From: Gemmatimonadaceae bacterium
GTDB taxonomy: Bacteria > Gemmatimonadota > Gemmatimonadetes > Gemmatimonadales > Gemmatimonadaceae
Direction of reading: 5' to 3'
Assembly: GCA_036003045.1 (NCBI GenBank)
Contig: DASYSS010000040.1
Location: 1 to 64,000 of the forward strand
DNA: 64,000 bases
Shown here: positions 24,024 to 46,906 of the stretch, piece by piece
Layout: each line of letters begins with the position of its first letter
How positions within the stretch are numbered: position 1 is the stretch's first letter
Position numbers and translations under genes: made by a program
The notes under the pieces: model-generated
The model's database searches: none
What the model saw: only the letters and a program-made list of their open reading frames with translations
Told to the model about the DNA's origin: nothing

Positions 24024-24180
24024 TCGGACGAAGTTGATCAACGTGAATGCCGAGTCCGCCATTCGGCACAATGAATGCACCTTAGACCCTCGAATCAACG
24101 CGTTGCGTCACGCGGCACGCGCGGTGCGCTCGCCATAGCCACCGAGACCGTCGAAACCGAGCCGAGCATCAGGAGGGGTG

Positions 24181-24762
24181 ATGTTGCGACTGAGAGATAT
24201 CATGACCACGAATGTGGTGACCGTCAGCCCCGAGATGTCGATTCGCGAGGCGATGGAGCTCTTTGGCAAACAGCACGTGAGCGGCGCACCAGTGGTGAGC
24301 GGCGGCAAGTTGGCCGGCGTCGTCACCGGGGGCGACCTCATGACATTCGCCAGCGCATTGCCGGGCGTCCCGACCGAGCGTGAACTGGCGGACGCCTCGA
24401 ACGCGTACGACGAAGAGAATTCGGTCGAACGCGACGCGGAAGACGAGGCGGAGCCCGCGGCGGCGTACTTCGCCGAGCTGTGGGACGACGCCGGCGTCGA
24501 CGCCGCAGAACGTGCCGCGACGGTCGACACGCCGGAGTGGAATTTCCTCGAAGAACACGACGTGAGCGAGGTGATGACGCGCGCGCCGCTCGCCACGCTG
24601 CCGCCCGACGCCGAGGTGTCGACGGCCGCGGAGATGATGAAGAAGCGGAAGGTGCATCGCGTGCTGGTCACCGAGGGCGAGTCGCTGGTCGGAATCGTGA
24701 CGGCCATGGACATCACGAAAGCCGCCGCCGATCAGCGACTGGACGGTCACCCGAAGCGTTGA
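24181..24762 (+). CDS. CBS-pair protein with long acidic linker
   Basis: A 193-residue soluble protein with two CBS motifs. CBS1 (about 3-60) has LRDIMTTNVVTVSPEMSIREAMELFGKQHVSGAPVVSGGKLAGVVTGGDLM. CBS2 (about 127-188) has VSEVMTRAPLATLPPDAEVSTAAEMMKKRKVHRVLVTEGESLVGIVTAMDI. The two halves are separated by about 65 residues that are acidic and aromatic (EENSVERDAEDEAEP, FAELWDD), much longer than a usual CBS linker. The ATG at 24181 is preceded by a consensus AGGAGG (24171-24176); the in-frame GTG one codon upstream is not used. The stop codon overlaps the -35 box of the downstream fluoride promoter. Confidence 0.88.
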   Translation: MLRLRDIMTTNVVTVSPEMSIREAMELFGKQHVSGAPVVSGGKLAGVVTGGDLMTFASALPGVPTERELADASNAYDEENSVERDAEDEAEPAAAYFAELWDDAGVDAAERAATVDTPEWNFLEEHDVSEVMTRAPLATLPPDAEVSTAAEMMKKRKVHRVLVTEGESLVGIVTAMDITKAAADQRLDGHPKR

Positions 24763-24788
24763 CAAGCGCCGCGCGAATCGCCTAGCCT
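24759..24788 (+). promoter_or_regulatory. Sigma-70-type promoter of the crcB unit
   Basis: A perfect TTGACA (24759-24764), 18-base spacer, then TAGCCT (24783-24788). The predicted start, about 7 bases later, falls at the first base of the fluoride aptamer (24796). The TTGACA includes the TGA stop codon of the upstream CBS gene (24760-24762). Confidence 0.65.
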
Positions 24789-24792
24789 TCGC

Positions 24793-24865
24793 GGCGGCGA
24801 TGGAGCTCGCCCTTAACCGCCGCAGCTCGGCTGATAGCTCCTACTGACCCGTTGTCCGTAGGAGC
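24793..24865 (+). promoter_or_regulatory. Fluoride (crcB-motif) riboswitch, probably translational
   Basis: The aptamer matches the crcB-motif consensus. GGCGA (24796-24800) can pair with TCGCC (24807-24811) as the pseudoknot. GGAGCT (24802-24807) pairs with AGCTCC (24836-24841) as the long-range stem. The conserved GGCTGAT (24829-24835) and CTACT lie at the 3' end, and GCCG/CGGC (24819-24822 with 24828-24831) forms the side hairpin. The expression platform is visible: GCTCCTAC (24837-24844) is an exact reverse complement of GTAGGAGC (24858-24865), which contains the crcB ribosome-binding site. Fluoride binding should hold the 3' strand in the aptamer and free the site; without fluoride the site is paired. 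It lies directly before crcB. Confidence 0.93.
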
Positions 24866-24871
24866 CTCCTC

Positions 24872-25300
24872 ATGAGGATCGATTGGCGACTCATCGCCGC
24901 CGTCGCGGTCGGCGGCGCGTTAGGCAGCGTCGTGCGATATCTCGTCGGCGCGTTCATCCAGGGGCGAGTCGCGACGCCGTTCCCCGTCGGAACGTTCGCC
25001 GTGAATATCAGCGGCTCGCTTCTGCTCGGATTCTTGATGCGGCTCGGACTCGAGACCACGGCGTTGGGTCCGGAGATGCGGTTCTTTCTCACGACGGGAT
25101 TCTGCGGCGGCTACACGACGTTCTCGACGTTCAGCTACGAGACGTTCCGCCTGTTCGAGGACGGCGAATACGGGACCGCCGGATTCTACGTCGCATCCAG
25201 CGTCGTTCTCGCGCTGCTCGGCTGCGCGATCGGAATGAGCGTCGCGGGACGAGTGATCTCGATCGGCCGGGCCGGCCTCTCGGGAGGAATCGACACATGA
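24872..25300 (+). CDS. crcB: Fluoride exporter CrcB/Fluc
   Basis: A 142-residue four-helix membrane protein of the Fluc/CrcB family, which assembles as an antiparallel dimer and passively exports fluoride. Hallmarks are GGALGSVVRYLVG (14-26), the pore asparagine in GTFAVNISGSLLLGF (Asn45), and the break-helix motif GFCGGYTTFSTFSYE (76-90). The start is ATG 24872 with GGAG at 24861-24864, inside the riboswitch-controlled region. The stop overlaps the ATG of the DUF190 gene (ATGA at 25297-25300). Expression should follow fluoride through the leader described above. Confidence 0.96.
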   Translation: MRIDWRLIAAVAVGGALGSVVRYLVGAFIQGRVATPFPVGTFAVNISGSLLLGFLMRLGLETTALGPEMRFFLTTGFCGGYTTFSTFSYETFRLFEDGEYGTAGFYVASSVVLALLGCAIGMSVAGRVISIGRAGLSGGIDT

Positions 25301-25674
25301 CCGCCAACGAGAACGCTCCAATGCACGGGCTCAAAGGTCAGCGCGTGCTCATGCGCATCCACGTCGGCGAGCGGGAAAAGTTCGAGGGTAACCCGACGTA
25401 CGAGCGGATCGTTCGTCTACTGCGCGACCGGCGGCTCGCCGGCGCGACGGTCTTTCGCGGAATCATGTCGTTCGGCGCGACGGCGCACGTGCACACCGTG
25501 AAATTCCTCGAGCTGTCCGGCGACTTGCCGATCGTCATCGAGTGCGTGGACTCGGCGGAAAAAATCGACGCCGTGCTCCCCGAGCTCGACGCGATGATCG
25601 GCGGCGGATTGATCACGCTCGAGAGGGTGGACGTGATCGTGTACCGCGCCGGAGGGGAACGCTCCGCAGGGTGA
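25297..25674 (+). CDS. DUF190 protein, partner of CrcB
   Basis: A 125-residue soluble protein of the DUF190 family (PII-like ferredoxin fold). Words typical of it are RVLMRIHVGEREKFEGNPTYERIVRLLRDRRLAGATVFRGIMSFG and DLPIVIECVDSAEKIDAVLPELDAMIGGGLITLERVDVI. DUF190 genes are commonly found next to crcB, and a sensor or modulator function in fluoride handling is presumed but not established. The ATG lies in the crcB stop (ATGA), so it is translated with crcB and shares the riboswitch. No membrane helix is present. Its role beyond this is inference. Confidence 0.9.
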   Translation: MTANENAPMHGLKGQRVLMRIHVGEREKFEGNPTYERIVRLLRDRRLAGATVFRGIMSFGATAHVHTVKFLELSGDLPIVIECVDSAEKIDAVLPELDAMIGGGLITLERVDVIVYRAGGERSAG

Positions 25675-46833: not shown

Positions 46834-46906
46834 CTCCCCGAGTAGGACTCGAACCTACGACCACTCGATTAACAGTCGAGCGCTCTACCAACTGAGCTAT
46901 CGGGGA
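46834..46906 (-). tRNA. tRNA-Asn (GTT)
   Basis: On the minus strand the acceptor stem TCCCCGA pairs with TCGGGGA. The D-arm GCTC-AGTTGGTA-GAGC, anticodon loop CTGTTAA (GTT) and T-arm GTAGG-TTCGAGT-CCTAC are complete, and the discriminator is G as expected for Asn. CCA is not encoded. The 73-nt length is normal. Confidence 0.97.

Follow-up and report, generated by a model that had tools for sequence, protein, structure and literature searches.

Covariation analysis of full-length fluoride riboswitches found a conserved overlap of the pseudoknot strand with the platform hairpin, the two structures being mutually exclusive and covarying (PMC13273304). Fluoride riboswitches are established to work by sharing one strand between the pseudoknot and the expression platform (PMC13273304, PMC11077080), strand competition also being described in PMC11077080. 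Translational members of the class have been named from Pseudomonas syringae and Burkholderia pseudomallei (PMC13273304). The locus described here lies in the window (the whole stretch of 64,000 nucleotides that was analysed) and shares with the class (RF01734) the aptamer letters, stem P1, the second stem, the pseudoknot and the place before crcB, as well as the use of the pseudoknot 3' strand by the platform hairpin. No substantive difference from the class was found, the window pair GGAGC/GCUCC, in place of the commoner GGAGU/ACUCC, being a compensatory variant that is present in relatives too. The same competition between pseudoknot and hairpin is described for the transcriptional riboswitches of Bacillus cereus and Thermotoga petrophila (PMC11077080); however, their platforms end in a terminator, whereas the window hairpin ends in the ribosome site and carries no U-tract. 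The window resembles the P. syringae and B. pseudomallei riboswitches in having no terminator after the aptamer and in the presumed control of the ribosome site. Among the papers searched for riboswitches in Gemmatimonadota, the phylum that the gene content of the window suggests, none dealt with fluoride riboswitches there.

Identification of the riboswitch, its predicted promoter and its genes

A single fluoride riboswitch was identified in the window using cmscan with Rfam 15; it scored 52.6 bits, well over the gathering threshold of 34. The preliminary description had matched the aptamer pairings to the crcB motif and had proposed the Rfam covariance model as a check; the significant match at 24787-24850 (Table 1) agrees with that assignment and is the sole RF01734 copy above the cut-off in the 5.37-Mb genome. 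A further match, on contig 32 of this genome, scored 25.7 bits and so fell short of the gathering threshold; it is placed inside an aspartokinase/homoserine dehydrogenase-like frame and was rejected as a chance match. In the aptamer, GGAGCU (24802-24807) forms the pseudoknot with AGCUCC (24836-24841), with a core of GGAGC (24802-24806) and GCUCC (24837-24841). The riboswitch is positioned in cis ahead of a fluoride-resistance gene, since crcB (PF02537) begins 22 nt past the aptamer match, at an ATG that is the first start codon after an in-frame stop at 24845. An ordinary tRNA gene (75 bits) is located elsewhere in the window, at 46834-46906 on the reverse strand.

Table 1. Features of the crcB leader and neighbouring genes (window coordinates)
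Feature	Position	Strand	Evidence and remarks
Upstream two-CBS-domain protein	24178-24762	+	PF00571, E 5e-30; stop overlaps the -35 element
Predicted promoter: TTGACA (24759-24764), 18-nt spacer, TAGCCT (24783-24788)	24759-24788	+	Sequence; RNA start expected near 24795-24796
Fluoride riboswitch aptamer	24787-24850	+	RF01734, 52.6 bits (gathering 34), E 1e-11
Aptamer stem P1 (GGCGA/UCGCC) with pseudoknot loop GGAGC(U), 24802-24807	24796-24811	+	Rfam alignment and MFE fold
Second aptamer stem (GCCG/CGGC)	24819-24831	+	MFE fold and Rfam alignment
Shared strand: AGCUCC (24836-24841), pseudoknot 3' half; GCUCCUAC (24837-24844), 5' arm of masking hairpin	24836-24844	+	Sequence; covariation
Predicted OFF hairpin: 8 bp, 1x1 mismatch, GAC/GUC (3 bp), loop CCGUU; no U-tract after it	24837-24865	+	Fold, -16.0 kcal/mol alone; native versus swapped arms in relatives
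crcB Shine-Dalgarno AGGAG, 7 nt before ATG	24860-24864	+	Sequence
crcB/fluc fluoride channel (CrcB, Fluc exporter), 142 aa	24872-25300	+	PF02537, E 1.7e-31
DUF190 (COG1993) protein, overlapping crcB by 4 bases (ATGA)	25297-25674	+	PF02641, E 2e-36

The preliminary description had also placed a promoter here, with a perfect TTGACA overlapping the previous stop codon and a start coinciding with the aptamer. The overlap is present, the stop being the TGA at 24760-24762 of the CBS-domain gene, and the promoter proposal is plausible. The arrangement TTGAC(N)-17/18-TAnnnT recurs: TTGAC-like and TAnnnT pairs spaced by 16-19 nt, with nine or more matches out of 12, were found upstream of the aptamers of relatives at 13 of 60 loci, against 0.3 expected from shuffles, and TAGCCT itself is also present in several relatives. 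The -10 element is the weaker part of the proposal, as TAGCCT matches at 3 of 6 positions only, which is why nothing here passed the thresholds of the generic promoter scan. From the end of the predicted -10 it is 7 nt to the first G of the aptamer (24796), and an RNA start at 24795-24796 is plausible.

The predicted masking hairpin

The exact complementarity of GCTCCTAC (24837-24844) to GTAGGAGC (24858-24865), and the presence in the latter of the GGAG ribosome site ahead of the ATG at 24872, were confirmed as first reported, as was every other sequence statement of the preliminary description. Both the MFE and the centroid fold of 24795-24885 include the hairpin at 24837-24865 together with P1 and the second aptamer stem, the free RNA being predicted to fold into the blocking hairpin. 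For the leader as a whole, the z-score of folding is modest (-1.6). The AGGAG lies within this helix, which takes up the pseudoknot strand and excludes the ligand-bound fold; because pseudoknot and masking hairpin use the same strand, the two pairings are mutually exclusive. The isolated pseudoknot duplex is worth about -9.9 kcal/mol compared with -16.0 kcal/mol for the hairpin, indicating that stabilisation by the ligand would be needed for the ON state. After the hairpin comes CCTCCTCATG / CCTCCTCATGAGG (CCTCCTC), which is not a U-tract, and neither a terminator-like site nor a U-run was found there. The window hairpin was consequently dropped as a candidate terminator, and control is most likely translational.

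Taken together with the established mechanism of the class, this anatomy allows the complete on/off mechanism put forward in the preliminary description to be strongly inferred. The RNA would start close to the first G of the aptamer. Binding of Mg2+-fluoride would keep AGCUCC in the pseudoknot with GGAGCU, leaving the arm GUAGGAGC (24858-24865) free, so that ribosomes could bind AGGAG and both CrcB and the overlapping DUF190 protein would be made. Without fluoride, GCUCCUAC would pair with GUAGGAGC and the ribosome site would be buried. The element is very probably a genuine fluoride (crcB-motif) riboswitch that acts mainly on translation and is ON with fluoride, its ligand binding, direction of switching and translational mode being deduced from class and structure.

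Comparative tests of the strand/arm pairing

In mononucleotide shuffles of the 27-nt spacer the GTAGGAGC octamer arose in 12 of 200,000, a figure that does not control for the presence of a ribosome site. As a correction to the original reasoning, the CUCCU of the aptamer complements any AGGAG ribosome site, which supplies about five of the eight pairs for free. Since part of the complementarity is thus automatic, a comparative test between genera was the proper control. Of 395 phylum genomes scanned with RF01734, 61 gave a match, 57 of them above the cut-off. The DNA downstream of the aptamer was read for 61 loci, a set that contains two matches under the cut-off but not the contig 32 chance match. 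Two weak relatives (L060, L062), the atypical L012 and L034, for which the best arm to be found lay across a loop of 68 nt, were excluded from the statistics, and no helix was obtained for L037. For the remaining 56 loci (window included; 28 genera), the duplex between each locus's own strand and arm was compared with duplexes in which arms were exchanged between genera, a procedure that stood in for a genome-wide Shine-Dalgarno null. Own duplexes averaged -19.7 kcal/mol and swapped ones -15.4 kcal/mol, and a mean as strong as the observed one arose in 0 of 40,000 permutations, indicating that the strand/arm pairing is selected; these counts, like those for covariation below, treat genera as independent, an assumption that holds only approximately.

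The window deviates from most of these loci at one position, having G in the strand and C in both loop and arm. This position covaries three ways. Counted by genus, loop and strand covary (28 with loop T and strand A, 7 with loop C and strand G, and a single exception; p = 1e-6), as do strand and arm, the base in the arm tracking that in the strand (p = 0.012). The reading of the strand as common to the pseudoknot and the ribosome-site mask is upheld by this compensatory change, which preserves the strand across the phylum. No Rfam match at E up to 1 was obtained at the crcB loci of four genomes of the same genus (G144, G177, G255, G395), so that four of the six genomes searched in the genus have crcB without a detectable riboswitch; regulation of crcB by the riboswitch is not universal in the genus.

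Alternative explanations

The same hairpin might serve, exclusively or additionally, as a terminator of transcription, either intrinsic or assisted by Rho, masking of the ribosome site being secondary. Fluoride riboswitches that control transcription have been characterised well (PMC13273304, PMC11077080) and 41 of the 56 loci are T-rich after the GGAG, that of the same-genus genome G375 among them; however, neither a U-run nor a terminator-like site was found after the window hairpin, and we regard this explanation as unlikely. A different objection is that the complementarity is a by-product of CUCCU meeting any Shine-Dalgarno sequence and has no regulatory role. It draws on the near invariance of CUCCU in the aptamer and on AGGAG being a common ribosome site, and can account for the five free pairs, but not for the retention of pairs outside this core or for swapped arms being on average 4.3 kcal/mol worse; it is already disfavoured for the phylum and is very improbable for the window.

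The aptamer could also be a decayed remnant above a constitutive crcB, as its patchy distribution (61 of 395 genomes) and the occurrence of same-genus crcB genes without a riboswitch might suggest. Against this stand the score of 52.6 bits, the conserved core letters, the intact pseudoknot and the C in both loop and arm that fits the strand G; decay is very unlikely. A functional, mainly translational riboswitch remains the preferred reading.

Platforms and genes across the phylum

The platforms of the 56 loci were sorted using thresholds of at least 5 T in 8 nt and an open frame of at least 65 aa, giving class sizes that are approximate. The 41 loci with such a T-rich stretch after the GGAG, including that of G375 (GGGAGTTTTTTTATG), comprise 24 with a start codon 5-11 nt away, where one hairpin may combine a terminator with a ribosome-site mask, and 17 without such a start codon, which resemble classical terminators. 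A start codon without a U-tract, expected of purely translational control, was found at nine loci, the window among them, and six had neither. It is conceivable, although we hold the idea tentatively, that the platform of the phylum is one dual-purpose hairpin, whose 3' arm serves as ribosome site and whose U-tract serves as both terminator tail and start-codon spacer (24 of 56 loci), and that the species of the window lost the U-tract and turned purely translational.

Genes other than crcB were also observed after these riboswitches. In many cases the gene directly after the riboswitch encodes a small protein, mostly of 129-161 aa, with the motifs LNxxQxRH and LRGYGxVD (L026, L027, L028, L030, L032, L016, L042, L047 and L005; further loci L069-L079). 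This protein has no NCBIfam family, and three of the four examples scanned gave no Pfam match, the L042 copy giving a weak DinB_2 match below the cut-off. A profile of the protein found it in 10 of 200 phylum genomes, in 8 of the 10 no more than about 3.1 kb away from a fluoride riboswitch, and it is a candidate unrecognised fluoride-response protein. The copy in the window's own genome (L073, 1474-1905 on contig 36) lies apart from the only fluoride riboswitch of that genome, and no riboswitch was found in the 3.4 kb of its locus. A dynamin-like GTPase frame lies directly 3' of the riboswitch in two genomes, G188 and G322 (L012, from +35, with a PF00350 match; L021, from +24). Na+/H+ exchanger-like genes follow the riboswitch at L034 (PF00999 scan) and, as judged by eye, at L022, L043, L049, L050, L051 and L056.

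Significance

The mechanism proposed for the window is already known for fluoride riboswitches; taken by itself the finding is ordinary and extends a textbook arrangement to a further bacterium. It adds what appears, from the sequence, to be one well-supported translational fluoride riboswitch, and the comparative set also shows selection on the alternative pairing. The graded platforms within one phylum, from those with a U-tract to those without, could be used to test platform interconversion and, if the proposed dual-purpose hairpin is true, would form a small natural series for how a riboswitch shifts between transcriptional and translational control.
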